The position numbers were made by a program, and so were the translations under genes. Of a stretch of DNA of 61,714 bases, positions 5,443 to 31,246 are shown in pieces (positions within the stretch are counted from its first letter, which is position 1; every line of letters starts with the position of its first letter). The notes below the pieces were generated by a model, which was given only the letters and a program-made list of their open reading frames with translations, made no database searches and was not told the origin of the DNA. Location: positions 1-61,714 of the forward strand of contig JBFLWK010000009.1 in the NCBI GenBank assembly GCA_040757695.1. Reading direction: 5' to 3'. This DNA is from Elusimicrobiota bacterium (GTDB lineage Bacteria; Elusimicrobiota; UBA8919).

Positions 5443-8400
5443 ATGAAAAACGCAGAACAGACACAAAACAAAACACACAGAACAGACACAGAACAAAGAA
5501 TATGGAATAGCGACTACAAAAAACACCAACTGAAGTTGGGTAGAATTACCTTTTACCTTTTACCTTTTACCTTTTACCTTTCTACCTTTCTACCTTTCTA
5601 CCTTTCTACCTGCCTCTATGCGGATGTAATAAATACTGTTGCAGGAACAGGTGTATCAGGTTTTTCAGGTGATGGTGGTGCTGCAACCTCTGCACAGGTA
5701 GCTATGCCACGTGGTATAAATATGGACACCTCCGGAAATATATATATCGCAGATACCGGTAATCATTGTATTCGTAAAGTGAACACATCAGGCATAATTT
5801 CTACTGTTGTTAATACATCTACACAAGCAGGTTTTTCAGGTGATGGTGGTGCTGCAACCTCTGCGCAACTTAATTTTCCATCTGATGTTGCTGTAGATAG
5901 TTCAGGAAATTTATATATCGCAGATAGCAGTAACCACCGTATTCGTAAAGTAAATACATCCGGTATAATTACAACTGTTGCAGGCACAGGTACAGCAGGT
6001 TATTCAGGCGATGGTGGTGCTGCAACTGATGCGAAACTAAACCAGCCGATGGGTGTTACTATCAAGGGAAGCGATTTATACATCGCTGATACAAACAATA
6101 ATCGGATTCGTAAAGTAGATAGTTCAGGAATAATTACAACTGTAGCAGGCACAGGTGTATCAGGTTCTTCAGGTGATGGTGGTGCTGCAACCTCAGCACA
6201 GATTTCAGAAGTGCGTAGTGTAACATTTGATAATGCAGGTAATTATTATATTGTAGAGTTGACAAGCAGTTGTGTTCGTAAAGTGAACACATCAGGTATA
6301 ATTTCTACTGTTGCAGGCACACCAGGTTCGTCAGGTTTTTCAGGTGATAATGGTGCTGCGACCTCTGCACAACTCTGGAATCCACGAGATATAGCAGTAG
6401 ATAGTTCAGGTAATTTATATATCGCAGATGGCAGTAACCACCGTATTCGCAGAGTAAATACATCAGGTATAATTACAACTGTTGCAGGCACAGGTACAGC
6501 AGGTTATTCAGGTGATGGTGGTGACCCCAGAGCTGCCAATCTTAACGCACCGCATGGTATTGCATTTGATAGTTCCTATAATTTATACTATGTAGGTCAC
6601 TGTGAGTATACTGTTCGTAAAATTGTTTATACAGGCACTATTCAAGGTAACCTTGTGTATACTGGCAGTCAAACAGGGACATATATTGTAAATGTCTCAA
6701 CCGATATAAATTTCTCAGTCCAGAATACCACAAAACCAGCCACAACATCATATACTTCATCAGGTTTGCTTGGTGCTAATACACATTATGTACAAGGTTT
6801 CTTAGATACTAATGGAAATAGTAAAGTAGAGAATTTTGAGCCACGCAGAGCATACCCGGCTATTCAGCAACCGGATACAGACCCTGCTACTGCAAGTATG
6901 AAGCAGAATTATGTTGAAATTGGCTCAACAGTATCTAATATCAATCTGAATTTTATTGATTATGGTGCGTTAGCAGGTGAGATTACAAAAACCAGCGCTC
7001 AGACCGGTAATATAGTTGTATATGTGGCTACAAATACATGGCCATCTCCAGGTAACAGGTATTCCCGGACTGGTGCTGGTGAATCAGAATTGGTTCTTGC
7101 AGCACCGGGGAATTATACGCTTTATGTTCCAACAGCACCCGGGAATTATTCTGTAATTGCGTTTATTGATGGTGATAGTGATCTTTACAGGGATACCGGT
7201 GAAGATTATGCTCAATCATTAGCCACTATGACTGTTACTGCATTAACTACTTCTTATATTAACTTAAATATCGCGCCTGAAACACTTGCACAGCCATCTA
7301 ATTTCTACGCTACTTCAGTAGCGGTTTCATCTATTCAATGGCAGTTCACAGATAATGCTGATAATGAAACAGGCATGTATGTTTCATCAGGAATCAATAC
7401 AACAATGCGACTATCCGAGAATTTAGGTCCGTTAGCAGGCACAGGTGGGACAACAAAATGGTGGGAAACCGGGTTATCAATAAACACACAATACACCAGA
7501 TACGCAGAAGCATATAATGCTGGTGGTTCAACCTGGTCTGTCTCAGCATCAACCTACACACTTGCTAACCCACCGTCAGGCAGTAGTATAGTGTCAGTGT
7601 CAAGTTTCAGTATCAGTATTTCGTGGTCAAATAATTCTAATCCTGGTTATACCAGATGGGGTATCTTGCGGTCAAGTGATAATTTTGGAACAAGCACTAC
7701 ATTAAAAGCATTTGTTGATAATTACACGAGTACAAGTTATACCGACTCCGCAGGATTAAATCCTGCGACTACATACTGGTATAAAGTGAATGCATTCAAT
7801 GAGGATGTATACGCAACTACATATGACACGACTGTATCAACAATAACTTTACCACCACCACTACCTGCACAACCATCTAATTTCTACGCTACTTCAGTAG
7901 CGGTTTCATCTATTCAATGGCAGTTCACAGATAATGCTGATAATGAAACAGGCATGTATGTTTCATCAGGAATCAATACAACAATGCGACTATCCGAGAA
8001 TTTAGGTCCGTTAGCAGGCACAGGTGGGACAACAAAATGGTGGGAAACCGGGTTATCAATAAACACACAATACACCAGATACGCAGAAGCATATAATGCT
8101 GGTGGTTCAACCTGGTCTGTCTCAGCATCAACCTACACACTTGCTAACCCACCGTCAGGCAGTAGTATAGTGTCAGTGTCAAGTTTCAGTATCAGTATTT
8201 CGTGGTCAAATAATTCTAATCCTGGTTATACCAGATGGGGTATCTTGCGGTCAAGTGATAATTTTGGAACAAGCACTACATTAAAAGCATTTGTTGATAA
8301 TTACACGAGTACAAGTTATACAGACTCCGCAGGATTAAATCCTGCGACTACATACTGGTATAAAGTGAATGCGTTCAACGAGGATGGGCTTGCTACGGGC

Positions 8401-12993: not shown

Positions 12994-13367
12994 TGGAAAT
13001 AATAATAGGAATTGCGCTTGGCAGTTTAAGTATTTTTTTAGGATTGTTAGCGATTTTACTTTCCTGGCGCTGGGCTAAAATGACAGACCAAACAATTAAA
13101 TCAGAGGATGCAAGAGCTAAACAAATCATAGAAGATGGAAACAGACATACACAGCAATTGATAGAAGACGGCAACAGACGAACACACGAGTTGTTGGCAA
13201 AGATAGAGGATGGGAATAGATACGCTAGAGAGATACTGGCAAGAATGGATGACAGAACAGCCAAAATGGATGAACGTGCAGCTCGTCAGACTGAAGTCTT
13301 GATACGGCTGTTAGAGCAATCACAAACTCGCCAGACGGTTACTACAATTAGAGAAGAAGGACCGTAA
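12993..13367 (+). CDS. small membrane-anchored coiled-coil protein
   Basis: 124 residues. One N-terminal membrane helix (about 3-27, IGIALGSLSIFLGLLAILLS) is followed by a long charged helix with the repeats IIEDGNRHTQQ, LIEDGNRRTHE and KIEDGNRYARE, then MDDRTAKMDERAARQTE. The start codon overlaps the stop of the giant gene (TAATG), so it is translationally coupled. It resembles the protein at 14896 in layout. Similar small proteins occur beside secreted giants, but I know of no assigned role. Confidence 0.8.
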   Translation: MEIIIGIALGSLSIFLGLLAILLSWRWAKMTDQTIKSEDARAKQIIEDGNRHTQQLIEDGNRRTHELLAKIEDGNRYAREILARMDDRTAKMDERAARQTEVLIRLLEQSQTRQTVTTIREEGP

Positions 13368-13398
13368 TATAAAACTAAATAAGATGCAAGGAGGAAAT

Positions 13399-14766
13399 AT
13401 GAAAAATAATTACATTAGTATGACATTTTGGAGCATTTTCAATTTTACATTTTTAATTTTTAATTGCCTTTACGCTCAGCAAAGTGGCGGGATATTTTTA
13501 GAGATCCCATCATCAGTTCGAGCAGGTGGTATGGCAGAAAGTTATACCGCACTATCAAACGAGACATTCGGACTGCACTACAACCCTGCGGGAATTTCGT
13601 TTATTGAGAATGCTGCGGTCTCGTTTTTGCATCATATATATCTACAAGATTTTAATGGTGAGTTTTTAGGTTTTGTTAAGCCTGTCGGCAAATTCGCGGT
13701 TGGTTGCGCACCTGCATATATCGGGATGAAACAAGAGCCGATTTATGATACGCTTGGGAATGAGACCGGCGAAAGTTTTCAGTATAATGGGCTTGTAATA
13801 CCAGCTGCGGTCTCGTATCTGTTATCCAAAAATGTTGCTATTGGTACAAACCTCAAACATTATTCTGAGACTATAGACGATTTTTCACAGAGTGTTTTTA
13901 CGGTTGATGTCGGTAGCATTCTATCTTATCGTAGTTTCCGACTCGGTGTTTCAGGACTGAATTTAATCGGTGAACTTGAAGGATATCAACTACCAAGAAC
14001 ACTAAAAACCGGGTTGGCAGTGGTGGCTAAGAAATTTACTTTATCAACCGAATTTGATAGGCAGTTAGTAAAACAAGAAAACCTTATCAGTGTTGGTGCT
14101 GAAGTGCCTGTTGCAAAAATATTTTATTTAAGAGCTGGATATAAGATAAAAGGAAATGGAGACTTTGGTGGACCAACCGGTGGAGTTGGTATAAATTGGA
14201 AAGGCATCAACCTGGACTATGCATTCTCAGGTTATGGTGATTTAGGCACTACACATAGAGCTGGGATTTCGCTTGCACTGCTGCCTGAAAAAGAAAAAGT
14301 GGTAGAAGAAAAAAGGGAGGTATCTGTTGAAAAACCAGAAATTATCACAAAACCTGTTATAGAAAAGCCAACTGTTCAGATAAATATTGCAGTTGCAGAT
14401 TTTACAGGGAACAATGTATCCCAAGCGGATGCCACTATCGTTGCAGGTTTCTTAAGAACAGAACTGGTAAAAATAGGTTATTATAATGTTATTGAGAAAG
14501 CAAATATGGATAAGATATTAGCAGAAGCAGCATTCCAGCAGACGGGTTGTACAACATCAGAATGCGCTGTCCAAATAGGTAAACTGCTGAATGTTAGAGA
14601 AATGGTTGTTGGCTCGCTATCAAAACTTATGGATACATATTTTATAACAGTGAATCTTGTAGAGGTAGAAACCGGTAAGATATTGAAATCAGAAGATATA
14701 AAAGCACAAACCGCAGCGGACCTTAGAGCTGCCTGTAAAGAACTTGCAGAAAGAATTTGTCAGTAA
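13399..14766 (+). CDS. PorV-like outer-membrane barrel with C-terminal CsgG-like domain
   Basis: 455 residues. The start at 13399 has AAGGAGG at good spacing; an ATG five codons upstream lies before that site. The signal peptide ends near CLYA|QQ. Residues about 25-300 match the UPF0164/PorV-type barrel (SVRAGGMAESYTAL, LHYNPAGISF). A charged linker (EKEKVVEEKREV, then EKP repeats) leads to a CsgG/TolB-like domain from about 330 (VADFTGNNVSQADA, LRTELVK, VIEKANMDKIL). PorV proteins shuttle type-IX cargo in Bacteroidota, and CsgG-like domains bind in the periplasm, so a secretion-accessory role is plausible but inferred. Confidence 0.85.
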   Translation: MKNNYISMTFWSIFNFTFLIFNCLYAQQSGGIFLEIPSSVRAGGMAESYTALSNETFGLHYNPAGISFIENAAVSFLHHIYLQDFNGEFLGFVKPVGKFAVGCAPAYIGMKQEPIYDTLGNETGESFQYNGLVIPAAVSYLLSKNVAIGTNLKHYSETIDDFSQSVFTVDVGSILSYRSFRLGVSGLNLIGELEGYQLPRTLKTGLAVVAKKFTLSTEFDRQLVKQENLISVGAEVPVAKIFYLRAGYKIKGNGDFGGPTGGVGINWKGINLDYAFSGYGDLGTTHRAGISLALLPEKEKVVEEKREVSVEKPEIITKPVIEKPTVQINIAVADFTGNNVSQADATIVAGFLRTELVKIGYYNVIEKANMDKILAEAAFQQTGCTTSECAVQIGKLLNVREMVVGSLSKLMDTYFITVNLVEVETGKILKSEDIKAQTAADLRAACKELAERICQ

Positions 14767-14878: not shown

Positions 14879-14895
14879 TTAACTGGAGGCAAATC

Positions 14896-15186: not shown

Positions 15187-15195
15187 GGAGGTTTT

Positions 15196-17202
15196 ATGTT
15201 AAAACGGTTTTTGGTAATGGGTTTTGTGGGATTGGTTTTATCTGTGTTTATCTGTGGTCTCATCTGTGTTAATCAGTGTTTTGCAGCAAAATGGACATAT
15301 GCTGTTTATTTAGATGCAGATAACAATTTAGAGGATGCCGGTATTGACGATTTCTTAGAGATGGCAAAAGTAGGCAGTAATTCCGATATAAATATCGTTG
15401 TCCAGATGGATAGGGCGTCTGGCTATGATTCAACATACGGCGACTGGAAAACCTGCAAGAGATTCAAAATAACAAAAGATATGAAACCTTATGCATCAAA
15501 CGCACTTGAAGACCTCGGTGAAGCAAATATGGGCTCACCTACTACACTGACAAATTTTATCACCTGGGTATGGACAAATTATCCAGCAGATAGATATGCA
15601 CTCATTTTATGGAATCACGGTGGCGGCTGGCGTGACCGTTCACCATCTCGGTCTCCATTAGAGCGCGCAGTCTGCTGGGACGATGGAAACAATGATGATT
15701 GTCTTTATATGAAAGAAGTAAGAACCGCAATCTCTAATGCATCACATACTTTTGACCTCATTGGATTTGATGCCTGCTTGATGGGACATTTGGAAGTTGC
15801 ATATGAATTAAGAAATGTTTTAGACGATGCTAACGGCGTGATGGTCGGCTCTGAAGAAACGGAACCTGGCGATGGCTGGCCTCACGATACAATCCTGTCA
15901 TATCTAGCAGCAAACCCATCTGCAACACCAAAACAATTAGGAACAGCAATCGTTGATAAATATGGTGCTTTTTATGGTGCATCTGCGGCGTGTACTCAAT
16001 CAGCAATTGATACTACAAAAATAAATGATGCCGTCAGCAAACTAAACATATTTGCGGATTCAATGAATGACAACTCTCAACTTACAGCAATTCAAACGGC
16101 GAGAACCAACTGCAAGGCATATTCGGAATCCGACGGTTATTATGGTGTTGATATTTATCGGTTTGCTAATCAGGTTGGTGGCACTGCGGCAACCAACCTG
16201 AAAACTGCCATAACATCCGCGGTTGTCAAAAATTACAAGGGCTCTGCAAGAAACGATACTGCAAAATACGGCTCTTACGGGCTCTGCGTCTATTTCCCAA
16301 AAACAAAATCATATTATGATTCCGCTTACACCTCTGCGATTTTATACGGCTCTGAAACAACAAACAAATGGGACGATTTCTTGAAACGATATTACGATGG
16401 TAATCTCGGAACTGGTGGCGGGTCAACACAAACAGGCGCTGACGGTAGTGGCACAGCATCGCTTTCTAAAAAAGGTGTCGCACCGAATACATATTATACA
16501 TCAATCACATACACACTAACACCAACAGCAGCAGGTTCACTCGGTGGCGGAAAGGTAGAAGTGACTATTCCATCCGGGTGGACTGCACCACAAAATACTT
16601 CATCAACCGGTAAGGGCTATGTTAAATCATATATCTATAAATATCAGACAACTTCATACAACCTTACAACTGCTATATCAGGTCAGAAAGTTACTATAAC
16701 AGGTATTCCATCAGACCGGCTTGCTTATGGAAGCGGTGATAAATTAAAACTGCAATACAAAAAATTTACAACACAATCAACCGAAGGTACTGCAAAGTTT
16801 TATACCAAAACTGCAGGTAGTGGCGGGACACTTACCGCAATCTCAAAACAGCCAACAATAACGGTTGGTGCGTCATATGCTTCTTCAAAAAGCGATATAG
16901 ATGAAGAGGTTGAGGCAGAAGATGGCAGTGTAAAACAGGCAGCACTTGGACAGAATTATCCGAACCCGTTTAATCCTGCGACAACATTTAATTATTTCAT
17001 ACCTGAAGGCGGGCGGGTAACCATCAAACTTTACAATGTTGCCGGACAGGAAGTGGATACTGTGGTTGATGAAGACCAATTATCAGGCGAGCATTCTATA
17101 AAATATGACTCCGGCGATAAACTCTCACGCGGCGTCTATTACTACCGCCTGACTCTTAACGGCAAAGAAATCGGTACAAAACGTGCAGTAGTTCTGAAAT
17201 GA
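15196..17202 (+). CDS. secreted clostripain-family (C11) cysteine protease with FlgD-like C-terminus
   Basis: 668 residues; start preceded by AAGGAGG. The signal peptide core is VLSVFICGLICVNQCFAA, built on TCTGTG words. The C11 catalytic motifs are ILWNHGGGW (His) and IGFDACLMG (Cys), in the clan CD order. After about residue 395 comes a beta domain, then a C-terminal sorting-type domain with the hallmark NYPNPFNP, VTIKLYNVAGQEV and a basic end. It is probably exported and anchored or processed at the surface. It lies ten bases after the coiled-coil gene and shares ATGA with the retropepsin gene. Confidence 0.92.
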   Translation: MLKRFLVMGFVGLVLSVFICGLICVNQCFAAKWTYAVYLDADNNLEDAGIDDFLEMAKVGSNSDINIVVQMDRASGYDSTYGDWKTCKRFKITKDMKPYASNALEDLGEANMGSPTTLTNFITWVWTNYPADRYALILWNHGGGWRDRSPSRSPLERAVCWDDGNNDDCLYMKEVRTAISNASHTFDLIGFDACLMGHLEVAYELRNVLDDANGVMVGSEETEPGDGWPHDTILSYLAANPSATPKQLGTAIVDKYGAFYGASAACTQSAIDTTKINDAVSKLNIFADSMNDNSQLTAIQTARTNCKAYSESDGYYGVDIYRFANQVGGTAATNLKTAITSAVVKNYKGSARNDTAKYGSYGLCVYFPKTKSYYDSAYTSAILYGSETTNKWDDFLKRYYDGNLGTGGGSTQTGADGSGTASLSKKGVAPNTYYTSITYTLTPTAAGSLGGGKVEVTIPSGWTAPQNTSSTGKGYVKSYIYKYQTTSYNLTTAISGQKVTITGIPSDRLAYGSGDKLKLQYKKFTTQSTEGTAKFYTKTAGSGGTLTAISKQPTITVGASYASSKSDIDEEVEAEDGSVKQAALGQNYPNPFNPATTFNYFIPEGGRVTIKLYNVAGQEVDTVVDEDQLSGEHSIKYDSGDKLSRGVYYYRLTLNGKEIGTKRAVVLK

Positions 17203-17477: not shown

Positions 17478-17489
17478 GAATTTACTCTA

Positions 17490-19091
17490 ATGAAAAAACT
17501 TATTCTATCCGGACAGGTTTTGTGCCTGTTTTTTTTATCTATGAGATTCCTCGTTTCACTCGGAATGACGCTTTGCGTCATCTGCGTTAATCTGTGTTTT
17601 GCAAAATGGACTTTTATCGTCTATATGGCAGGTGATAATTCGTTAGATACTGCGTTAGGTGGCAACCAGTTAAACAAAGATATCAAGAAAATGGAAACTA
17701 CTATAAATACTACTAATACGAATGTTATTGTGCTTGCAGATAGAAATGGTGATGAAAACACATATATCTACAACATACTGAATGATAATAGTTACTGTAT
17801 AACAAGTCCAACAATTTCTGTATCAAATCTGCTGCCTGCTTGTACAACAAACGAATTGAATATGGGCGACCCAGCAACACTGGTTGCGTTTTCTACCTGG
17901 GTAATTACAAACTGGTCGGCTGATAATTATTGTCTTGTATTATGGAATCACGGTGGTGGCTGGTGGCCTAAAGCACCGAAACGAGGGATTGCTTGGGATG
18001 ATAATACATTAGACAACGATTACCTTACTACTGCTGAACTTGGAACTGCACTATCACAAATCAAAACTATTCTTGGAGGGGAGTGGAGTGGAAAAAAAAT
18101 TGATATCGTCGGGTTTGATGCCTGCCTGATGGCACAACTTGAGGTCGCATATCAGATAAAGGACTATGCTGATTATATGGTTGCCTCAGAAGAAAACGAA
18201 TACGGATGGCCTTACGACGGTTTATTGGCTGAACTTGGTACAAACCCCAATTACGAACCTGAAATAGTTTCACAAAAAATTGTAGAGATATGGGATAAGG
18301 CGTATTCAGATGAGACATTTTCCTGGTTTTCTGTAAACTTTGACAGCAGAACTGCTTCAGCAATTGACCTATCAAAAATTGAGACATTGACAACTGCAAT
18401 AGATAATCTGGCAACTGAACTGCTCGTATCAAAAAACACAGTTCCGCTGTATCTTACAAGAGATGTTGTTGATTTTTTTGGTGGGAAGGGTGGCAGCAGA
18501 GATGAGAATGACAAATTTGGTGGTATTGATATTTACGACTTGGCTTATATCATCAAACAGAATCCTGATTTATCTGCCGGTAGTTTGAGAAATGCTGCTG
18601 TATCAGTTATGGATACGGTTAATGATTGCGTTATTGCTAATAAGACAGGTAATTCTCATAAAAACGCACACGGGCTTTCAATAAACTTTCCTAAAACATT
18701 ACTCGCATGGCAAAACGAAAATAATCCTGACAATTATTACGAGACACTACAATTCGCACAGGCAACACATTGGGATGAGTTTTTGACGGATTACTATTCA
18801 AAAGTGCTCTACGGACCTCAATCACTAAACTATGTGGTTTCTGCACCGAATCCTTACAATCCTTTAACCGGTAATCTGACAATAAAGAATTTTCCTGATA
18901 ATTCACAGATAGAAGTAAAAATTTACAATCTTGAAGGAGTACTCGTTAGAAAAATTGAAGGTTCAGGCAACTCAATTGACTGGGATGGCAAAAATGAAGA
19001 AGAAAATACTGTAGCATCGGGAATTTATTTTTATGTTGCAAAAACACAAACCGATTCTTGTAAAGGAAAGATTACAGTCATAAAAAGATGA
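17490..19091 (+). CDS. secreted clostripain-family (C11) cysteine protease
   Basis: 533 residues. Catalytic motifs VLWNHGGGW and VGFDACLMAQ, AWDDN between them, and ASEENEYGWPYDG after. The C-terminal sorting-type domain has APNPYNP, VKIYNLEGVLVRKI, VASGIYFY and the end VIKR. The signal peptide is odd: codons 9-16 lie on a terminator-like hairpin (17513-17536), codons from 18 onward on a dispersed repeat (TTTCACTCGGAATGAC), and the rest on TCTGCGTTAATCTGTG. An alternative start is the ATG at 17541, but the AGGA at 17476 favours 17490. Confidence 0.88.
   Translation: MKKLILSGQVLCLFFLSMRFLVSLGMTLCVICVNLCFAKWTFIVYMAGDNSLDTALGGNQLNKDIKKMETTINTTNTNVIVLADRNGDENTYIYNILNDNSYCITSPTISVSNLLPACTTNELNMGDPATLVAFSTWVITNWSADNYCLVLWNHGGGWWPKAPKRGIAWDDNTLDNDYLTTAELGTALSQIKTILGGEWSGKKIDIVGFDACLMAQLEVAYQIKDYADYMVASEENEYGWPYDGLLAELGTNPNYEPEIVSQKIVEIWDKAYSDETFSWFSVNFDSRTASAIDLSKIETLTTAIDNLATELLVSKNTVPLYLTRDVVDFFGGKGGSRDENDKFGGIDIYDLAYIIKQNPDLSAGSLRNAAVSVMDTVNDCVIANKTGNSHKNAHGLSINFPKTLLAWQNENNPDNYYETLQFAQATHWDEFLTDYYSKVLYGPQSLNYVVSAPNPYNPLTGNLTIKNFPDNSQIEVKIYNLEGVLVRKIEGSGNSIDWDGKNEEENTVASGIYFYVAKTQTDSCKGKITVIKR
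17513..17536 (+). terminator. intrinsic-terminator-like hairpin inside the start of the second C11 gene
   Basis: ACAGG, a seven-base loop and CCTGT, followed by eight T residues. It has the form of a rho-independent terminator for the upstream transcript but sits within the first codons of the annotated gene. Confidence 0.5.
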
Positions 19092-19161: not shown

Positions 19162-20103
19162 ATGAAAAATCAACAGAACAATGGAATTTGGAAACAAGGA
19201 AATATGGAAACAAGAAAATATGGCAAAATACTTGTTTCTATATTTCTATATTTCTATATTTCCTGTCTTTTAGCATCTGATTCTGGCACCTCCGCAGGGT
19301 TGTTGTTTCGTATCAGCCCATCTGCAAAAACAGCCGGTATCGCAGAGGCGGTAACTTCTATTTCTGAAAATCTGGCTGCATCTGATGTAAATCCTGCTTC
19401 TATCTCAACACTGCCTCACTACAATTTTTCGGTTTCACATTCGGAATACTTTGAGGATGTTAATATAGAAGAAATCAAGTTCTCTAAATATCTGCAAATA
19501 ATGGGTGGGCTTAGCGGTAATATCGGGCTATTAACAAAATATCTATCTCTAAAAGATATAGAACGCGACAAACGCGGTGTAAATCAGAATGAGTTCAGAA
19601 ACAGCGCTACTGTAATCGGACTTTTATATGCGACAAAAATCTATCCGGTTGATTTCGGGCTTACTTTCAAATATCTTCATGAACAACTATCTGACGAAAC
19701 CGCTGCTGCGATTGCTTTTGATTGCGGGTTTTTATACTCTACACCACTTTATAAACTGCCAATTGATTTCGGTTTCTCAGTAAGAAACATAGGTCCGAAA
19801 ACCGGCTATGGCGTTACAAAAGATTTTCTGCCGTTTGAAACCCGTTTCGGAATGAGCCATCAGTTTTCTAAAGCGCTGGTTTCTATAGACGGTATCTGGC
19901 AGCGTGAAAATAATCTGCTCGCTAATTTGGGTGCAGAATTGACTGTTACAAAAAATTTTTGTTTCCGCTGTGGATATACAACATTAAATAGATACTCATT
20001 AGGTGCTGGATTTTTAGCCGGAATGTTTTCTGTTGATTATTCAGTCACCACACACACGGAACTAACAGATATCCACAGGTTCACAGTAAGTTGTAAATTC
20101 TAA
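19162..20103 (+). CDS. PorV/UPF0164-like outer-membrane barrel protein
   Basis: 313 residues. The signal peptide LVSIFLYFYISCLLA is encoded by TTTCTATA octamers. The mature part starts with the family pattern LLFRISPSAKTAGIAEAVTS and continues with alternating beta strands to an aromatic end (FTVSCKF), typical of outer-membrane barrels. A second possible start at 19204 has AAGGA close upstream and gives a tidier signal peptide. It overlaps the next gene by one base. Probably an accessory barrel for the secreted proteins nearby. Confidence 0.8.
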   Translation: MKNQQNNGIWKQGNMETRKYGKILVSIFLYFYISCLLASDSGTSAGLLFRISPSAKTAGIAEAVTSISENLAASDVNPASISTLPHYNFSVSHSEYFEDVNIEEIKFSKYLQIMGGLSGNIGLLTKYLSLKDIERDKRGVNQNEFRNSATVIGLLYATKIYPVDFGLTFKYLHEQLSDETAAAIAFDCGFLYSTPLYKLPIDFGFSVRNIGPKTGYGVTKDFLPFETRFGMSHQFSKALVSIDGIWQRENNLLANLGAELTVTKNFCFRCGYTTLNRYSLGAGFLAGMFSVDYSVTTHTELTDIHRFTVSCKF

Positions 20104-21086
20104 TGAATACAAAAAAGTGGTTATGTGGTTATGTGGTTATGTGGTTAGTCTCTACTAATCACTTAATCACTTATTCACTTATTCACTTGCTTTTTACTAC
20201 TTATCCACTTATCCACTGCCTCTCTGCTGCTACCCATACCGGTGCTGATTTCTTGAAACTTGCCGGTGGCGCAAGAATCATCGCACTCGCAGAAACAGCC
20301 GCAGCAGTAAAACTGGATGCCAGTTCGTTTTTTCATAATCCAGCAGGAGTTGTCGGTTCGAAAAACGAAATAACTTTTTCACATTCTTCAGCACCGCAGG
20401 GTGATGCCGTCACTCAATATCTGGGCGGAATTTATTCGCTAAAAAAAGATGGTGTGATGGCTTTTGGCATACTGAGTTACAGGATTACCCCTATACCCGT
20501 TACCGACGAATTCAACTATGATATTGGCGAATTGATTTGGAATGACTGGGCGTTTTCAATCGCATATGGAAGGAACCTTTTTTACAATTTAGCCGCAGGA
20601 ATAAATATAAAATATATCTATAGATACGAAAAGAATCCACTATTTGGCAAAACGATTGGCAGAGCAACCGCAGTAGATTCTGGCGTTTTGTATAAAATTA
20701 TCAAAAATCTTAAACTCGGTTTTGCATGTGAGAATCTCGGTACAAAAGTGGCCTATTCTAACGACCCTGTAAAAGATAACCTGCCAACATCACTAAGAAC
20801 CGGATTCACATACTATCTATTAAATACACGCGAGAATCTGCTTGATGTATCGTTTGATTTATTCAAAGAAAAAGATGATAAGTACAGACCGCGAATCAGC
20901 GCTGAATACACATATCTGGACTGGCTGTTTTTACGGGGCGGTTACATAAATAAAGCAGGCGAGATTTCAGGACTGAATTTCGGGCTCGGCGTCGCCTGGC
21001 AAGGTTTCATATTTGATTTTGCAAGCAGTGTCAACAGCGTGTTTGCTCGGACAATTTATTTTTCGTTTTCTAAAAAATTCTATTGA
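20103..21086 (+). CDS. PorV/UPF0164-like outer-membrane barrel protein
   Basis: 327 residues. Its long N-terminal signal region is encoded by two octamer tracts, GTGGTTAT repeats (20117-20148) and TTATTCAC/TTATCCAC repeats (about 20157-20216). The mature part opens GADFLKLAGGARIIALAETAAAV, with FFHNPAGV, the conserved UPF0164 start, and ends with the aromatic-rich strand IYFSFSKKFY. The start codon overlaps the previous stop (TAATG). A strong promoter for the second giant gene begins at its 3' end. Confidence 0.8.
   Translation: MNTKKWLCGYVVMWLVSTNHLITYSLIHLLFTTYPLIHCLSAATHTGADFLKLAGGARIIALAETAAAVKLDASSFFHNPAGVVGSKNEITFSHSSAPQGDAVTQYLGGIYSLKKDGVMAFGILSYRITPIPVTDEFNYDIGELIWNDWAFSIAYGRNLFYNLAAGINIKYIYRYEKNPLFGKTIGRATAVDSGVLYKIIKNLKLGFACENLGTKVAYSNDPVKDNLPTSLRTGFTYYLLNTRENLLDVSFDLFKEKDDKYRPRISAEYTYLDWLFLRGGYINKAGEISGLNFGLGVAWQGFIFDFASSVNSVFARTIYFSFSKKFY
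20117..20148. repeat. (GTGGTTAT)4 octamer tract in a signal peptide
   Basis: Four head-to-tail 8-bp units, the last with one change, encode the beginning of the signal peptide of the barrel protein at 20103. Confidence 0.85.
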
Positions 21087-21111: not shown

Positions 21112-21148
21112 ATAATTGTTATACGTAATAGGTAAGTAGGCGTGAACG

Positions 21149-21206: not shown

Positions 21207-21237
21207 ATGCCAGCAAAATTGATTGGAGGTTAGCTTT

Positions 21238-24200
21238 ATGAGAAAAATTATTATTACCGGGTTCTTGTTCGTCTTATGTATAGGGAGGCTATCAGCATTT
21301 GATGTATCGGTAACTGATTTGGTTGGTGAAGATATTGGCGCAAACACAAATATCACGCTGCCATCGGTAATTAAAGCATCCAGCGACTGGATACCACTAT
21401 ACAAAATCACTATTACAACCACTACCAGTTATACTTTGAATATCACAACTGTTACACTAGTTCGTAAAACTACATATTTTGATGCCAGTGTTGATTTGCT
21501 CGCGTTATCTAATGGACTGGCTTTTTTCAAAGATGATGGGAATGGTGTCTGGGAAGGTTCTGCTACCGAATACCAATGTAGTGCTTCTGCAACACCATCC
21601 ACCTGGACTGAAAACCCGGCAGATACCTGGCGGGTGATGTTATCACTTACTTCAAACAGAGGTATAACCGCTGGTGATAACTTTTTCTATTTAGCAATTC
21701 GGACTTCTGATAGTATTGAAAATGGTGCTCAATTCCGGGCTGACTATAATGCTAATGGGGAACTGGTGCTTGAATTTTCTGACGGCACAACTGAAACCGG
21801 TAATTATGGTGCAGCAGATACTATGACTGCGGATATAATCGCACCGTCATTCCAGTACTCATATACACCTGATGCTACAGATGGCACAACTGCTAAAGTA
21901 ATCAATTGGGCTTCTGATAATGTATATTCTCAATCTAATGATTCAACTATCAATATCGCAGTAGATTTGGGCGAATTACAAACAAAACTTGACCCGGATA
22001 GTATTTTTGCATTATCTGAACTATTCACGATAGATGAAACTGATTATTTAGGTGCGGGCTCGGTTTCATATCCTTGGTATGCTGATATCGCAGATGGCGA
22101 TGGGAATGCTGATGAGTGTTGGATTCAGTACGATTTAAGCGCATCAACTGTTAATCAAAACACAGATGGTGTTAATCCGCTAAAATTCCAGATACGTGTC
22201 CGCGATGCTGCAGGTAATGTCTCAGCACTGGAAGACTCATTCAATATTTATATTGATTCCAAAGCACCTGAAGCAGTCGCACTCAATACACCAGCTGCTG
22301 ATGCCTGGATAGGTCCTAACAACATGCCAACATTATCCTGGGCAACTTCTACTGAACCACATCTGAACCAATACCGACTTATAGTGACAACAATCACAGA
22401 TGTGAACTATGCGATGACAGCAGGCGGTACTTCCAGATACCGCTACAAGAACTTAGGTGATGTTACATCCGCATACTTCCCAACTTCTTGGGATGCCGGC
22501 TCTTTATCAGTTGCTACTTCGTCTACCACCATATACTACTGGTCAATAGTTGGCATAGATTATGGTAATAATATAACACCATACACATCTCTATCACCAC
22601 GCAGTTTTTATTATGATAATGAAACACCTACAATTTCTAACAATCTACCTACAACTACACAGACAAGCAGTGTGCCAGTAATTACCGCTGTGTTTCTTGA
22701 TAATTATAAATCCGGGATTGATATTTCGTCATTCACAATGCTACTTGATGGTAATGCGGTAACACCATCATACGCACAGATAATACCAAGTTCTTATACG
22801 ATTTCATACACACCAAACCCACCACTTGCAGATGGCTCACATACAGTCCAACTCCAGTGCCAGGATAATGTTGGAAACCAATCATCTGTAACGCAATTTT
22901 CATTTTCAATTGATACGAAACGACCTGTTGTATTGGACAGCGATAATGATGGCTGGGCTGATTACGATGAATTAGCAAACAACTGGAATCCAAACAGTAA
23001 TTCTTCACCGGGTGGTACTGGTAACGATTTCTATCCGCTAAAAAATCAAGTTGTTAATTACGATGATTTTGTAACCAATAATACCAGTAAAATAAAAATT
23101 ACAATAGAAGACCCGTTAAGCGGTAGCGTGGGCGCTACATCAGGCGTTGATATAGATAACTCAAGTATTACTGTCACAGGACCGAAAGGCAGTTTCTCGT
23201 TTGGAAATGATAACATACCAATCACAGACCAAGTTTCAAGCAGCAACAACCAATGCAAAACTTCGTCGTTCACCTGTCAGCTGCCACTTCCACTTTCAAA
23301 CATCGGTGCTGACGATGGTACCTACACAATCACAATTAAACCAAAAGAAAATACTACAGGATTAGATGGCGATACTGTTACCCGGATATTTATTTACGAT
23401 GCTACACTGCCTACAATAACACCCGCCACAAACCCAACTACCGGTAATACATCAAGTTATATAACATTATCACTCACTGCTGCTGATACAAATGGTATCA
23501 GTAGTGCTGCGGATGCTGTTCAGATTGTGTATCGGCTAGGTACAGGTGGCGCGGATACAACCGCAAATATGGTTGCTGGTGCAGGTGGCAGTTATTCGTT
23601 TACTGCCCAACTTACTACTGCGGGAACTTATTACTATTACTTCTCGGCAACTGATACTGCAAAGAATATCGCATATTCGCCCGGCGACGATACACAACCC
23701 GCAGTTGCAGAACGAAATATGCTATATATCGCAGATAAAACCGCACCACAGGCTGTAATCTCAAAATTAGAAACTTTACGCGGATATCTAACTACCGGCT
23801 TGACACCATCCAATCCGCCTGTTTATACAATAACAACTTCGCCATCTATCATACAAACACCAACTGTATACGCTGCCGGTGCATCTACATATACACTGAT
23901 TCAAGCAACTGTTCCGGTAGAGACAACAACGCTGAGTTTCCAATACCGTCAATCACCATCAGGCAGCTGGATAGATCTTACAACTGAAAAAACCGCTTCT
24001 ACTACATATCAAACCTGGTGGCAGACAACTGGATTGACTGTCGGCAGTTACTACGATATTCGGGCAATCGCTACTGATGCTGCCAGTAATACTGATACAC
24101 CAACTTCTAACAGTTCGTTTGGCTTCATTACCGTGTATATCGCTACACCACCAGCACCGAAATCAGATATTATTACCGATAACCGCATTGATGATTCTGC

Positions 24201-27200: not shown

Positions 27201-29961
27201 TAGTGCGAACCAAACAGCTAATAGAGTATGGTTCACAACAACACATCTCGGTAGATACGCACTGATGGTAATAAACTCAACAACAACAATCACATTCCGG
27301 TCACCTGTTCAGGGCGGTTATGTCGGCACAACACCATCAATAGATATAGAAGCAGCAGACACATTCTCAGGTATAAGAGAGTTTAAACTTGAACTGGATG
27401 GCTCGGATGTAACGGCTGTATTTGGAGGAACAACTCGTATTCTATCAGATACATCAGCAAGATATACCGCAACACCAACACTTACACCAGTAGAACATAC
27501 ACTGAAAGTAACCGTTACCAATCAGCAAGGTCAGGTAGCAACCTCAACAATAAAGTTTAACTCTGGTACACTTAACTGGACAGGAACACAGCCAACAAAT
27601 GCACAGATACTGGTCTCTACAAAAACATTACCGACAATACCGTCAACACAGAGTTTTCTGAGTAGTGCGTCTCTTTCTGCAGTTGATTTTTCATTTGCTG
27701 ATAAAACTACAACTTTCCCTGCTAATAGCAATGTTCAACTACAAATAAATTACAACGACGCTGAACTAACAGGTGGAACAACTGCAGAAACGAATTTAGG
27801 AATCGCATGGTGGGATTCCACTAATTCTAAATGGTCTGCAGAAGGCATCACCAGCGTAAGCGTTGACCAGGACAAAAATGTGATTACATTCAATACCAAA
27901 CATACTGGAACTTTTGCACCGATGGTAATCAATTCCACAACAACAATCACATTCCACTCACCTGTTCAGGGCGGTTATGTGGGAACTTCACCGTCAATAG
28001 ATATAGAAGCATCTGATACTTTCTCAGCAATAAGGCAGTTTAAACTTGAACTGGATGGCTCGGATGTAACGGCTGCTTTCACCGGAACAACCAGTATTCT
28101 ATCAGATACATCAGCAAGATATACCGCAACACCAACACTTACACCAGTAGAACATACACTGAAAGTAACAGTTACCAATCAGCAAGGTCAGGTAGCAACC
28201 TCAACAATAAAGTTTAACTCTGGTACACTTAACTGGACAGGAACACAGCCAACAAATGCGCAGATATTGGTCTCTACATCTCCACATCCATCAATACCGT
28301 CAACACAGAGTTTCTTGAAAACCGCTTCTTCTGCATCTTTTGATTTTTCATTTGCTGATCAAACTACAACTTTCCCTGCTAATAGCAATGTTCAACTACA
28401 AATAAATTACAACGATTCTGAACTGACAGGTGGAACAACTGCAGAAACGAATTTAGGAATCGCATGGTGGGATTCTACTAATTCTAAATGGTCTGCAGAA
28501 GGTATCACCAGCGTAAGTGTTGACCAGGACAAAAATGTAATCACTTTCAATACCAAGCATACTGGAACTTTTGCACCGATGATAATCAATTCAACAACAA
28601 CAATTACATTTCGGTCACCTGTAAATGGTGGTTATGTAGGCACAACACCATCAATAGATATAGAGGCATTTGATACTTTCTCAGCAATAAGACAGTTTAA
28701 ACTTGAACTGGATGGCTCGGATGTAACGGCTGCTTTCGCCGGAACAACCAGTATTCTGTCAGATACATCAGCAAGATATACCGCAACACCAACACTTACA
28801 CCACAAGAACATACACTGAAAGTAACAGTTACCAATCAGCAAGGTCAGGTAGCAACCTCAACAGTAAAATTCAATTCAGGCACACTTGCATGGACCGGTA
28901 CACAGCCGACAAATGCACAGATACTGGTCTCTACATCTCCCCCACCATCAATACCGTCAACACAGAGTTTCTTGAAAACTGCTTCTTCCAGTAGTTATGA
29001 TTTTTCGTTTATGGATAAAACTACCAACTTCCCAACAGGTAGTAATGTTCAACTCCAAATAAATTATAACGATTCTGAACTAACAGGTGGAACAATTGCA
29101 GAAGCGAATTTAGGTATCGCATGGTGGGATTCAACTAATTCTAAATGGTCTTCCGAAGGTATCACCAGCGTAAGCGTTGACCAGGATAAAAATGTGATTA
29201 CTTTCAGAACTAACCACTTTACCATTTTTGCACCAGTGATAATATATTCTACTACAACTGTTACTATCAACTCACCAGCAGAAAACAAATATGCATCTGC
29301 TAATCCATTGATATCATTATCAGCAGAAGATACATTTTCAGCAATCCGCGAGGTAAAAGTAGAGGTTGATGGTTCTGATATAACAGGGCTTTTGTATCAG
29401 CAGGCAGCAATTGATGGGATTGATAACGACTCAGATGGGCTTGTAGATGAACAAGGTGGTGATGCAACCACATTCCTTGACGATGAATTACCATTTGCAC
29501 TCACAGGCACAAATGCTGCCAAATTTATTGCCCGAGCGCTCTACCTGAACCTCAAAGATGGTGAACATACACTAAAAATTACTGTAACTAATGAGCAAGG
29601 AAAATCAACTATTAAAAGTATCAAATTCAATACTGGAAGTACACTTGAAATGACCGAACCACATAATTATCCAAACCCATTTGACCCAACAAAGATACCA
29701 GCATATATGACCGCGCCAACTTATATCTGCCCGAATATCACAACTGATGCACTTGTAAAAATAAAAATTTATGACTTTGAAGGTCACGAAGTCGCTTCGT
29801 TAGAAGAACGACTCTATAACCAGAACGAATACATCACATGGGATGGTAAAGATAACGAAACACAAAAATATCTGGCTAACGGTGTATATTTCGCTAAAAT
29901 AGAAGCAAATAGCAGCACACAAAAAGTAAAAAAATTTATTAAAATCGCTATAGTCAGGTAA
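21238..29961 (+). CDS. giant secreted Ig-like repeat protein with FlgD-like C-terminus
   Basis: 2907 residues from the ATG at 21238 (GGAGGT upstream; the in-frame TTG at 21223 lies before that site). An ordinary signal peptide (MRKIIITGFLFVLCIGRLSA) is followed by many Ig/cadherin-like beta domains with YDNSAPAQP- and TDPTITNF-type boundaries. Calcium-type acidic loops DSDNDGWADYDE (about 567), DDDGDGSFNKD (about 1409) and DGIDNDSDGLVDE (about 2725) resemble thrombospondin type 3 repeats. Three almost identical 219-residue units lie at about 2012-2668. The C-terminal sorting-type domain has NYPNPFDP, VKIKIYDFEGHEV, NGVYFAKIE and ends KIAIVR. Probably a long surface fibre or adhesin. Confidence 0.9.
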   Translation: MRKIIITGFLFVLCIGRLSAFDVSVTDLVGEDIGANTNITLPSVIKASSDWIPLYKITITTTTSYTLNITTVTLVRKTTYFDASVDLLALSNGLAFFKDDGNGVWEGSATEYQCSASATPSTWTENPADTWRVMLSLTSNRGITAGDNFFYLAIRTSDSIENGAQFRADYNANGELVLEFSDGTTETGNYGAADTMTADIIAPSFQYSYTPDATDGTTAKVINWASDNVYSQSNDSTINIAVDLGELQTKLDPDSIFALSELFTIDETDYLGAGSVSYPWYADIADGDGNADECWIQYDLSASTVNQNTDGVNPLKFQIRVRDAAGNVSALEDSFNIYIDSKAPEAVALNTPAADAWIGPNNMPTLSWATSTEPHLNQYRLIVTTITDVNYAMTAGGTSRYRYKNLGDVTSAYFPTSWDAGSLSVATSSTTIYYWSIVGIDYGNNITPYTSLSPRSFYYDNETPTISNNLPTTTQTSSVPVITAVFLDNYKSGIDISSFTMLLDGNAVTPSYAQIIPSSYTISYTPNPPLADGSHTVQLQCQDNVGNQSSVTQFSFSIDTKRPVVLDSDNDGWADYDELANNWNPNSNSSPGGTGNDFYPLKNQVVNYDDFVTNNTSKIKITIEDPLSGSVGATSGVDIDNSSITVTGPKGSFSFGNDNIPITDQVSSSNNQCKTSSFTCQLPLPLSNIGADDGTYTITIKPKENTTGLDGDTVTRIFIYDATLPTITPATNPTTGNTSSYITLSLTAADTNGISSAADAVQIVYRLGTGGADTTANMVAGAGGSYSFTAQLTTAGTYYYYFSATDTAKNIAYSPGDDTQPAVAERNMLYIADKTAPQAVISKLETLRGYLTTGLTPSNPPVYTITTSPSIIQTPTVYAAGASTYTLIQATVPVETTTLSFQYRQSPSGSWIDLTTEKTASTTYQTWWQTTGLTVGSYYDIRAIATDAASNTDTPTSNSSFGFITVYIATPPAPKSDIITDNRIDDSARLFGDKVLISATPSASTRNIEYAAVKFQYKRSDTSAWTDIATDTTTDTTPTNVTITLNENDIPYIMDSKGVDITKSITAVKFDCTTDNTYDRSMTKSGNLWSVTIPFAPGTYQYNFDLTFADSTGLANLQDPHEYDDAGGNSQIIVGTFSTMFNISALTSNVSYDFRAVATDSRNNTDASPSYITMIYDNSAPAQPTVTEPVAPANRLKADGATTIAVKAAASDTYGLDVVIFQYSDDSGTTWKQIGSDADLSDGCTVQWQLPNLASDTTYYIRVFAWDTAGNISSASSNYPVILDVTDPTITNFSVVSPSTSTTLTSGTRYTLIAETLDSDIAYITYTHTLSSGTWIPSAIITSKTGSGTISDPYKYTVYFEPTNTETETEETLTATITDFCGRTGTKTLTVNSLDITPSVATLSQVNIDDDGDGSFNKDAVDSVDNDADGLIDEDPTNPVTAGSNIYIGRNGAFLQATVSNLDGGTVKFQYSTSATGPWTTIEEVAAATITTTTNQFIPLAFGLAEGTYYLRALVTDNDGNVDSNPTVISAIYDGTEPTINTFTAPTTTIDCSRPFTLYAKTNNTDVSRIVFQYYDPSPPTPGWVVIDTTTANRLIRLVSSKITPSAVGLAEQTITVTAPNVTQPTSLQVRAFCIDKAGNRNTDTSHAPVSTISLNDTAAPVATIVSAANGTVSAETSEANVKSVLFQYRPSGSSIWMDLGTDTPPPDATFGNTGTRWTSPITLTNLPADTYQLRAIATDMFNNSSVSVAPVLTASVSVNDEGTKTYSLPRSTQIVIGISNVSFTGTGSVQMTVNVISANPLTSAPTVSFFITDGSSNTATKTVALTGATTSWSGTVELTNLATTAGAGNASITVYGTDAAGNVWGDTVGLILSAPANNPTGTSIDNMARLDSYSNWPALANNGCLFIGPAYQPQISTEQSAVIKPIGRVYEFASSDGTKQFLAGITAYCWLDYADADIPSGYTEGKLGVAYWDSVNSKWSSEGITYVSANQTANRVWFTTTHLGRYALMVINSTTTITFRSPVQGGYVGTTPSIDIEAADTFSGIREFKLELDGSDVTAVFGGTTRILSDTSARYTATPTLTPVEHTLKVTVTNQQGQVATSTIKFNSGTLNWTGTQPTNAQILVSTKTLPTIPSTQSFLSSASLSAVDFSFADKTTTFPANSNVQLQINYNDAELTGGTTAETNLGIAWWDSTNSKWSAEGITSVSVDQDKNVITFNTKHTGTFAPMVINSTTTITFHSPVQGGYVGTSPSIDIEASDTFSAIRQFKLELDGSDVTAAFTGTTSILSDTSARYTATPTLTPVEHTLKVTVTNQQGQVATSTIKFNSGTLNWTGTQPTNAQILVSTSPHPSIPSTQSFLKTASSASFDFSFADQTTTFPANSNVQLQINYNDSELTGGTTAETNLGIAWWDSTNSKWSAEGITSVSVDQDKNVITFNTKHTGTFAPMIINSTTTITFRSPVNGGYVGTTPSIDIEAFDTFSAIRQFKLELDGSDVTAAFAGTTSILSDTSARYTATPTLTPQEHTLKVTVTNQQGQVATSTVKFNSGTLAWTGTQPTNAQILVSTSPPPSIPSTQSFLKTASSSSYDFSFMDKTTNFPTGSNVQLQINYNDSELTGGTIAEANLGIAWWDSTNSKWSSEGITSVSVDQDKNVITFRTNHFTIFAPVIIYSTTTVTINSPAENKYASANPLISLSAEDTFSAIREVKVEVDGSDITGLLYQQAAIDGIDNDSDGLVDEQGGDATTFLDDELPFALTGTNAAKFIARALYLNLKDGEHTLKITVTNEQGKSTIKSIKFNTGSTLEMTEPHNYPNPFDPTKIPAYMTAPTYICPNITTDALVKIKIYDFEGHEVASLEERLYNQNEYITWDGKDNETQKYLANGVYFAKIEANSSTQKVKKFIKIAIVR
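27271..29241 (+). repeat. three 657-bp tandem repeats within the second giant gene
   Basis: Units at 27271-27927, 27928-28584 and 28585-29241 keep a period of exactly 657 bp (219 codons) and are nearly identical in DNA. This suggests recent duplication or homogenisation. Confidence 0.9.
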
Positions 29962-30022
29962 AAAATGTTTTCGCGTTAGCGACAACATGAAAACTTAAAT
30001 TCTTGAATTTTGGAGGTGTCTG

Positions 30023-31246
30023 ATGAAAACAAGATGCAAGATGCAAGATGCAAGATGCAAGGGTTGGCAGTTATTGGTTTTACTTGTTTCTATATTTCTA
30101 TATTTCCATATTTCCTGCCTCTACACCGATGAATCCACAGATGCACTGCCTTATCTCCGAATGGGTGTCGGTGCAAGAGCATCAGGTTTAGGCGGTGCCT
30201 TTACCTCAATCGCAAATGATGGCTCTGCTGTTTATTGGAATCCAGCAGGACTAACTAAATTAAAAAAAATTGAACTATCATCTATGTATGGATTGCTTTC
30301 GTTAGATAGGAGTTTGAATTTTTTAAGCGCCTCGTATTCTATAAGCGAAAACATAGGCACTATCGGTTTAGGAGTGCTCAATGCCGGCATTAAAGATATA
30401 AAAGGATATGACGAAAATAACCAGCCAACAACTAATTTTAACTACCAATCTTTCGCAGGTATGGTCTCATACAGCAGAACTTTTACAGAAGGTGCATCAG
30501 CCGGCTTAACTATAAAATTTATATCGGATAAACTGAAAGATTCTACCGCTTCAGGAATAGGTGGTGATATCGGGTTCCTGGTTTCACCAACTGAGAAACT
30601 AAATTGTGGGTTGATGCTGCAGGATATCTATACTTCATTATCACTTGCTTCAGGTAAGAAAGATACTGTCCCGATGAGTTCCAAATTTGGTCTCTCGTAT
30701 AAATTGTTGCAAGATAAAATGACTGTCGCTGCTGATATAAATAAAGTAACAGACCAGAATAGTATACGATGGCAACTCGGTAGCGAATATACTTTACAGC
30801 CAATATCTTTACGGCTGGGATTAAACCAAAAATATCCATCAGCGGGATTTTCAATAAATATCTGGAATCTGTATCTGGACTATGGCTACACAGCGGATAA
30901 CCTGAAAGAAGGTGACAGACATTTCGTCTCAATCCGAGCAGCTTTTGGTAGTAGTGCTGGAGAAACATTTACAGAAGAAAAAAAAGTAGAAACTAAAGAA
31001 CCTAAGTTTGAAGAACCTAAACCTGTCAAAGAACTAAAAAAAGAAGAAAAAAAAGAAGAGAAACCAATGAGTGAAGCATCAAAACGGAATCTAATGCGAA
31101 ACCATTATAACCGCGCTGTAGAACTATATTCTAACCAAAAATATGAAGAAGCAATAAAAGAATGGCAGGAAGTACTGAAACTTGACCCGAATCACCAGCC
31201 ATCTCAAGAAAAAATAGAAAAAGCAAAAGAAAAATTAGGCAAATAA
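30023..31246 (+). CDS. PorV/UPF0164-like barrel with TPR tail
   Basis: 407 residues, start after GGAGGTG. The n-region is encoded by four AAGATGC heptamers and the hydrophobic core LVSIFLYFHISC by TTTCTATA octamers, nearly the same as in the barrel at 19162. The mature barrel starts LRMGVGARASGLGGAFTSIANDGSA with YWNPAGL (about 50-70) and runs to about 310. A lysine/glutamate linker (KEPKFEEPKPVKELKKEEKK) leads to a TPR pair (NHYNRAVELYSNQKYEEAI, about 360-400). The tail probably binds a partner in the periplasm. It is the last gene of the export cluster. Confidence 0.85.
   Translation: MKTRCKMQDARCKGWQLLVLLVSIFLYFHISCLYTDESTDALPYLRMGVGARASGLGGAFTSIANDGSAVYWNPAGLTKLKKIELSSMYGLLSLDRSLNFLSASYSISENIGTIGLGVLNAGIKDIKGYDENNQPTTNFNYQSFAGMVSYSRTFTEGASAGLTIKFISDKLKDSTASGIGGDIGFLVSPTEKLNCGLMLQDIYTSLSLASGKKDTVPMSSKFGLSYKLLQDKMTVAADINKVTDQNSIRWQLGSEYTLQPISLRLGLNQKYPSAGFSINIWNLYLDYGYTADNLKEGDRHFVSIRAAFGSSAGETFTEEKKVETKEPKFEEPKPVKELKKEEKKEEKPMSEASKRNLMRNHYNRAVELYSNQKYEEAIKEWQEVLKLDPNHQPSQEKIEKAKEKLGK
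30031..30058. repeat. (AAGATGC)4 heptamer tract in a signal peptide
   Basis: Four perfect heptamers encode RCKMQDARC in the n-region of the barrel protein's signal peptide. Confidence 0.9.

Follow-up and report, generated by a model that had tools for sequence, protein, structure and literature searches.

Short tandem repeats of the STRR type are found in cyanobacteria. Signal peptides derived from repeat DNA are known as single cases, namely Yersinia YPAL/RU-2 and enterobacterial RU-1f (Delihas; PMC2229807, PMC2759123). The DNA analysed here, a 61.7-kb contig of an Elusimicrobiota genome (GenBank accession number JBFLWK010000009.1), is referred to at its full length as the window. It carries a gene cluster (coordinates 5443 to 31246) for large surface proteins, two clostripain-family peptidases and PorV/UPF0164-like proteins, and in several of these genes the codons of the N-terminal leader include arrays of tandem 7- or 8-bp words. 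Comparison with related genomes supports the conclusion that, here and in some near relatives, signal peptides have repeatedly been replaced by such repeat DNA, with the protein behind unchanged.

For YPAL/RU-2 and RU-1f, homologous proteins of other genera have unrelated signal sequences, as was found here. However, the available text of these reports concerns a single, fixed element sequence and at most a few predicted proteins (PMC2229807, PMC2759123), whereas dozens of leaders, variable tandem words and replacement between orthologues are involved here. The Rickettsia palindromic elements (RPE) resemble the arrays in being palindromic repeats located in frame within conserved protein genes, but are, as far as that source describes them, fixed-sequence elements (PMC2229807), whereas the arms found here are site-variable tandem 7/8-mers that are densest in leaders. 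The heptameric repeats of cyanobacteria and Xanthomonas are, as here, dispersed tandem 7-bp words, many of which lie between co-directional genes near the end of the preceding gene. The accessible part of that account places the Xanthomonas and Nostoc heptamers mainly in intergenic DNA and describes no signal peptides (PMC4692102), whereas 73 of the 232 arrays found here are intergenic; the dispersed tandem 7/8-bp units in many copies that mark the STRR type are present, but its mainly intergenic location is not. The TAACTGA repeats of marine Beggiatoaceae are also abundant 7-bp direct repeats, but the text available gives them as intergenic and as one word (PMC4679880). Borg tandem repeats form new protein segments, and the proteins that carry them are enriched in signal peptides, but the in-gene units are, in the available part of that report, all divisible by three and mostly form disordered segments (PMC9879509), whereas here the units are 7 or 8 bp long and make up the signal peptide itself. 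The arrays are repeat-derived coding sequence, a kind already known, and tandem-heptamer leaders are new within the literature covered, where no title or abstract dealt with signal peptides made of tandem heptamers, most subscription journals lying outside this coverage.

Leaders of the window cluster and their orthologues

The source genome (G000) is a draft metagenome-assembled genome (MAG) of 2.89 Mb in 264 contigs that is 99% complete. Gene calls and signal-peptide (SP) calls were home-made. The relatives searched included seven genomes of the same family (G001 to G007), with G004 and G006 belonging to one genus, and G008 of the same order, and none was of the same genus as the source.

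The operon encoding the clostripain-family proteins C11a and C11b followed by PorA and PorB was found to be syntenic in G004, G006 and G008. The initial annotation had proposed looking in relatives for the same mature proteins with other signal peptides, and all four genes provided examples, the relatives having leaders of other words or of none. The mature part of PorB in G004, G006 and G008 is 76%, 77% and 59% identical to that in the window, while the PorB leader (coordinates 20103 to 20228; all window leaders are on the forward strand) is made of octamer words in the source genome, of ATTTTTA words (MKTIILIFNFPFLIFNCLYA, MKKIFLIFNFQFLIFNCLFA) in G004 and G006, and is non-repetitive in G008. 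In the window, 3.9 copies of GTGGTTAT (20117 to 20147) encode its n-region and 4.1 copies of TAATCACT (20156 to 20188) its h-region. The PorA leader (19162 to 19278; mature-part identity 60%, 59% and 39%, in the same order) includes purine-rich repeats (19177 to 19223) and a 3.5-copy array of TTTCTATA (19235 to 19262), which together form an inverted pair (19185 to 19266).

The C11b leader (17490 to 17603; 70%, 65% and 52%) is longer than in the three relatives, and the form bearing a TCTGCGTTAATCTGTG word (17581 to 17596) occurs only in the source genome; TTTCACTCGGAATGAC is also present in this leader (17554 to 17569). The C11a leader (15196 to 15285; 82%, 86% and 64%) has dispersed TCTGTGTTAATCTG-type words but no 7–8 bp tandem, and these words were found in the source genome and G004 but were absent from G006 and G008. 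Tandem Repeats Finder (TRF) reported only periods 10 and 22 in the C11a leader and nothing in that of C11b. The words TCTGTGTTTATCTGTG and TCTGCGTTAATCTGTG of these two leaders are dispersed repeats, found with up to 2 mismatches at 39 and 35 places in 861714 bp (letter-shuffled words, 0–3), whereas TTTCACTCGGAATGAC is barely a repeat, having 1 exact place, the C11b leader itself, and 3 when up to 2 mismatches are allowed (0–1 for shuffled words). The signal-peptide codons of C11b also contain a terminator-like hairpin of the GGACAGG...CCTGTCC type with T-rich DNA after it (window coordinates 17508 to 17540), which was seen in the source genome (imperfect), G004, G006 and G008.

Three further leaders in the cluster carry arrays. 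For the large NHL/Fn3 protein (leader 5443 to 5622), the h-region is encoded by an array (TRF, 5546 to 5611) of TTTTACC words and then TTTCTACC words, followed by TGCCTCTATGCG (C-L-Y-A). The leader of the UPF0164/CsgG-domain protein (13399 to 13476) has ATTTTTA words (13435 to 13465) and TTTTTAATTTTTAATTGCC (13450 to 13468). In the leader of the UPF0164-like/TPR protein (30023 to 30127), 4.6 copies of CAAGATG (30030 to 30061) encode the n-region and TTTCTATA (30087 to 30114) the h-region, followed by CTGCCTCTAC. The leader of the large Ig-like protein (21238 to 21297), an internal control, is free of arrays, as the initial annotation had indicated in calling it an ordinary signal peptide. That annotation also described repeat words in the other seven of these eight leaders; words are indeed present at all of the genes named, and 7/8-bp arrays were recovered at 5443, 13399, 19162, 20103 and 30023, but the genes at 15196 and 17490 have degenerate dispersed words. 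The words cited for the genes at 20103 and 30023 are present and encode the n-region, with further words encoding the h-region.

The same build extends beyond the window cluster. Among the PorV/UPF0164-like paralogues with an aligned N-terminus in the sequence sampled, 18 of 26 (17 of 25 without PorA) have a lag-7/8 leader array, with words as different as KWLSGYVVKW...TYSLIH, QKSEVRSQKSEVRK, FIFHFSFFIFH and LPTPYTLP, and it was also found in the leaders of lipoproteins (LLFAILYSLFAAFTGCA, FYLLPFTFYLLPAFIGCG) and pilin-like proteins (ITRYSLPVTRYGFTLIEV). PorV/UPF0164-like proteins are strongly multiplied, with at least 34 matches to the 30023 protein in the source genome and at least 34 in G001. 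In the window cluster, the cut-off for a UPF0164 match was passed only by the gene at 13399 and that for a type IX-like sorting tail only by the gene at 17490.

The comparison was extended to reciprocal-best pairs with at least 45% identity between 230801 bp of G004 and the source genome. In twelve of the 68 pairs, at least one partner has a 5' array, and in five of these both partners carry arrays, of different words (PorA, 59% identity; PorB, 73%; C7:54505, 90%; C13:34823, 72%; C18:4758, 68%), the other seven being one-sided. These pairs support the earlier suggestion that repeat DNA is a source of signal peptides. The same signal-peptide protein sequence written in ordinary codons, an outcome the initial annotation took as pointing away from a repeat origin, was not seen among the leaders compared. 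Leader identity was tried as a measure (mean 0.44 for the 12 pairs with a 5' array; mean 0.60 for 14 array-free crude SP pairs) and was dropped as too rough, because mature residues and false signal peptides were included.

Density of arrays in signal-peptide codons

The hypothesis was formed on sample 1 (461714 bp, comprising 20 stretches and the window), and a further 400000 bp of the source genome (sample 2) were drawn later for a retest, giving 861714 bp in total. A stretch was taken to match itself at a given lag when 20 of 24 positions agreed, and pass counts were converted from fractions. SP windows passed at lag 7 in 22/120 and at lag 8 in 13/120 cases in sample 1, and in 10/105 and 4/105 in sample 2, while none passed in either sample at the control lags 4, 5, 10 and 11, and 0 and 1 passed at lag 13. 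For gene-interior windows, 0 and 1 of 220 (sample 1) and 3 and 1 of 242 (sample 2) passed at lags 7 and 8. Convergence driven by codon usage was rejected on the near-zero control lags. In-frame slippage as the origin of the arrays was also rejected, as unmerged TRF rows of period 7, 8, 6 and 9 in the 5' zone number 42, 29, 1 and 0; TRF gave 106 period-7 and 43 period-8 rows in 461714 bp.

The 232 lag-7/8 segments in the pooled samples are divided between intergenic DNA (73), gene 5' ends (81) and gene interiors (78). Per 10 kb, this corresponds to 18.8 segments in SP 5' ends (63 in 33.5 kb), 9.6 in spacers (73 in 75.7 kb), 2.8 in other 5' ends (18 in 65.0 kb) and 1.13 in gene interiors (78 in 687 kb). 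The values for samples 1 and 2 are 25.8 and 10.8 for SP 5' ends, 7.8 and 11.6 for intergenic DNA, 2.6 and 2.9 for other 5' ends, and 1.0 and 1.3 for interiors. An array was present within the first 50 codons of 35/120 and 16/105 SP genes, compared with 7/181 and 9/253 other genes, and several of the array-bearing 'other' genes resemble leaders missed by the crude SP rule.

The words might simply invade any unconstrained DNA, with signal-peptide codons merely as permissive as spacers and no recruitment involved, and this plain tolerance is a real possibility, if one with less than an even chance. In its favour, words are also found between genes and inside housekeeping and membrane proteins. 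The excess of SP 5' ends over spacers is strong in sample 1 (p=2e-7) but absent from sample 2 (10.8 compared with 11.6 per 10 kb, p=0.89), and recruitment beyond tolerance therefore rests on sample 1. Other observations also weigh against recruitment: most crude SP genes are array-free (85/120 and 89/105), as are the 5' ends in 56 of the 68 orthologue pairs, and none of 74 SP windows in samples of G001, G002, G003, G036 and G040 passed the self-match rule. The SP rule itself is crude, and export of proteins with array leaders is a prediction made from sequence.

The distribution of individual words speaks against tolerance as the whole explanation, although the need for stop-free words in genes could explain part of it. 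The TTTTACC word TTTTACCTTTTACC is almost leader-specific, with 42 of 44 overlapping matches located, in sense, within 11 gene leaders, and 15 of 16 matches to TTTCTA are in leaders in sense. The initial annotation had stated that the same words occur in intergenic DNA and in housekeeping genes, which holds for several words but not for those that are almost confined to leaders. ACCTTTT, the commonest word in leader arrays (11 leader, 2 interior and 0 intergenic arrays), is stop-free in every frame, whereas spacer arrays are chiefly of AATTTTT (17) and AACCTTT (12), both of which include TAA. Compared by eye, leader words (TTTTACC, TTTTTCA, ACTTATTC) and spacer words (TTTAACC, TTTTTAA, ACTTAATC) differ by one base. 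Whatever the frame, the pyrimidine strand has no stop in 63% of leader arrays, a class in which n-region arrays, read on the other strand, are counted too; the proportion is 38% for interior arrays and 21% for spacer arrays.

Inverted pairs, arm ends and sites beyond leaders

Arrays were often found to have a partial reverse complement nearby, more often than in partner-swapped controls. A partner was present upstream of 13/54 leader (5.3 expected), 19/73 spacer (5.0 expected) and 7/45 interior arrays (2.2 expected), and downstream of 11/20 (2.3 expected), 12/71 (2.0 expected) and 4/27 (0.9 expected), respectively; these counts, like those of arm order below, exclude arrays longer than 80 or 90 bp. 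Only part of the arrays are paired (49 pairs at a score of at least 14), and in 47 of the 49 the purine-rich arm comes first, the other two being mixed; at a score of 12, the purine-rich arm leads in 59 of 68, with 3 reversed and 6 mixed. The order is identical on both strands because an inverted repeat is its own mirror. As 23 of the 25 pairs labelled intergenic are also purine-first, selection for signal peptides alone does not explain the order of the arms, though at least 2 of the 25 overlap the leader of a gene. An intergenic example in the window, with the purine-rich arm first, is located at coordinates 35172 to 35251 (no strand assigned).

In 51 array genes, the leader mRNA was predicted to fold slightly more stably than shuffled sequence (mean z -0.98), with 18/51 below -2, compared with 5/60 array-free SP genes and 4/60 other genes. 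The folding of the 25 intergenic pairs (20 below -2) is circular because the pairs had been chosen for pairing.

The pyrimidine arm has a recurrent end. The motif TGYCWYTA ends the arm in 22/44 SP leaders, 3/12 other leaders (sense) and 10/57 intergenic arrays, compared with 1/43 interior sense arrays and 0/42 antisense gene arrays (15+4+23), where about 0.006 per array is expected; 204 of the 232 arrays were used, the remainder being too balanced in composition to orient. The arms in leaders often end in TGCCTTTAY, which is read as C-L-Y-A (TGC CTT TAY GCN) or, one frame over, as the lipobox A-F-T-G-C (T GCC TTT ACC GGC TGC). By the home-made rule and inspection, this anatomy of basic n-region, hydrophobic h-region and small residue or lipobox fits Sec signal peptides. 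With own partners outscoring swapped ones, the paired arrays have the hairpin-forming inverted repeat of miniature inverted-repeat transposable elements (MITEs) and other palindromic elements. A TGCC/TGYCWYTA end recurs among the arrays. The pair CCATAATA...TATTATGG was considered as the element ends and dropped, the ATG being in several cases the start codon of the next gene.

In co-directional spacers (69 arrays), arrays lie a median of 50 nt before the next start and 31 nt after the preceding stop, with 29 of the 69 within 23 nt of the start, and inverted word pairs almost fill some of these spacers (G000:C7:55462-55526 and 57366-57455), ending a few bases before the next ATG.

Arrays are also found inside genes, as with the CAATCCC array (52002 to 52034, forward strand) within the gene at 50675 to 52219 in the window. 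Twelve interior array sites with an orthologue in G004 were compared; the partner is truncated in two, and at several of the others inspection revealed another repeat-like word at the same site in G004. In a TMEM260-like membrane family, five loci were compared at the site before FLLGFSVYL, where a basic loop precedes the start of a hydrophobic helix, as in leaders. The words differ between the loci, two in G004 being similar, and the arms match their own partners with scores of 6, 18, 23, 17 and 13 (mean 15.4), compared with a mean of 7.6 when swapped, the locus scoring 6 being without a partner arm. Repeat words of the TTNHYPLT type were seen at the same variable sites of TMEM260-like genes (L212, L220, L228) in G011, which belongs to another family. 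Elsewhere in the window, a 334-bp unit is present twice in tandem with a 97% match (33592 to 34259).

The inverted pair may be a portable cassette for export and membrane segments, usable in either orientation, with a dedicated process copying stop-free words from leader to leader and rewriting both arms together, though we regard this as doubtful. As the purine-first order holds on both strands and the words read alike in every frame, such a cassette, on landing near a start codon, would bring a basic n-region, a hydrophobic h-region and a TGCCTTTAY end acting as an SPase I site or, in the neighbouring frame, as a lipobox. Y1 transposase matches were found in 9 of 13 genomes but not in G008, G009, G010 or G012, and G008 has one locus with such a leader; a Y1 transposase as mobiliser of the words is only a lead.

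The same leader type was found at loci of G004, G006 and G008, and words are shared between genomes. TTTTTAATTTTTAATTGCC occurs 15 times in the source genome, 11 in G007, 9 in G004, 4 in G006 and 2 in G005, but is absent from the remaining 193 genomes of a 198-genome sample of the phylum, while overlapping matches to TTACCTTTTACCTTTTACCTT number 32 in the source genome, 18 in G004, 2 in G006 and 1 each in G005 and G008, with none in the other 55 of 60 genomes. CCTTTTACCTTTTACCTGCC is present in nine public records, four of them labelled Elusimicrobia, and all four Elusimicrobia records having the word plus TGCC show the same leader type; a scan of viral contigs with this word found nothing. 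About 2.5 units of CCTTTTACCTTTTACCTGCC were also seen in a signal-peptide-like leader (FYLLPASAQ) in Capnocytophaga (L199), of an unrelated phylum, which is likely due to chance or convergence. Because the same words are found in unrelated genes and in several genera, they appear to have been copied from a shared pool rather than to have arisen on the spot.

That the arrays are an artefact of assembling one MAG, a thought raised by the draft state of the genome and its 264 contigs, is almost certainly wrong, as the same leader type is present in the separately named MAGs UBA4817, ADurb.Bin231 and RIFOXYD2_FULL_34_15 and at homologous places in G004 and G006.

Frame keeping and the origin of the leaders

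Slippage of 7- or 8-bp units would shift the frame, and the initial annotation had suggested that exported proteins could be switched on and off in this way, as at contingency loci. This is very unlikely. Under equal criteria (an ATG start, some Shine-Dalgarno match and no stop through the array), 30 arrays were in frame and 2 out, counted in one consensus genome, where rare length variants would not show, so that the common out-of-frame states of a phase-variable contingency locus were not seen and frequent switching was rejected. One of the two exceptions is a GTG-start gene open through the array. The other is a TolC-like gene (G000:C10:6306-7517, locus 6306-7609, minus strand), in which a CTTCTAC array separates the upstream start from a body in another frame, either the one plausible off-state seen or an assembly error. 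Under looser criteria, 53 arrays were in frame and 3 out-of-frame-like, and in 23 cases no start preceded the array. Perfect copies are few in most arrays (about 3.5–5 in the window), and the PorB arrays of G004 and G006 consist of the same word at the same length. The arrays look like the replacement of a tag rather than an on/off switch.

If the arrays were untranslated leaders with the true starts downstream, no signal peptide would be made from repeats. Many non-exported genes do have an array immediately ahead of their ATG, 18 of the 23 arrays in the start-less class ending within 23 nt of it, and in the window a TTTTTAA-type array (42269 to 42302, forward strand) is located just 5' of the ATG of the non-exported gene at 42326. 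In exported genes, however, the arrays are open and in frame, and a motif resembling a cleavage site or lipobox closes them at the border of the conserved body, and this explanation is extremely unlikely for them.

The observations to be accounted for are the tracts and their density, the order of the arms, the different words before orthologous proteins and the keeping of frame. It is highly probable that repeat words are tolerated, recruited as signal peptides and then kept in frame. Tandem words of 7–8 bp, often as inverted pairs of a purine arm, a spacer and a pyrimidine arm, would be scattered in spacers and some protein interiors and densely in leaders. A tandem whose unit length is not a multiple of three encodes the same cyclic peptide in every frame, so the peptide would arrive whatever the frame. 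The purine arm would provide a Lys/Arg/Gln/Asn-rich peptide and the pyrimidine arm a Phe/Leu/Ile/Tyr-rich one, in the order of n-region then h-region, and the TGCCTTTAY arm end could supply the C-L-Y-A or the lipobox. Because charge, hydrophobicity and a small cut-site residue are all that a signal peptide requires, a tract could supplant the old leader, and once recruited would be held in frame. Fold-back copying could account for arms that change together. The words are most likely a copied repeat, tolerated in unconstrained DNA and retained where it turned into a signal peptide, and the array leaders would then work in export.

Recruitment of repeat words in this lineage would provide a natural, replicated case of the birth and replacement of signal peptides, in which the donor words, the altered leader and the unchanged mature protein are all visible. 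The long-standing idea that many different basic-plus-hydrophobic stretches can serve as signal peptides becomes directly testable, and repeat words that are independent of frame may be raw material for protein parts. Should the inverted pairs prove to be portable cassettes, the lineage would swap its signal peptides and the starts of membrane helices like cassettes.

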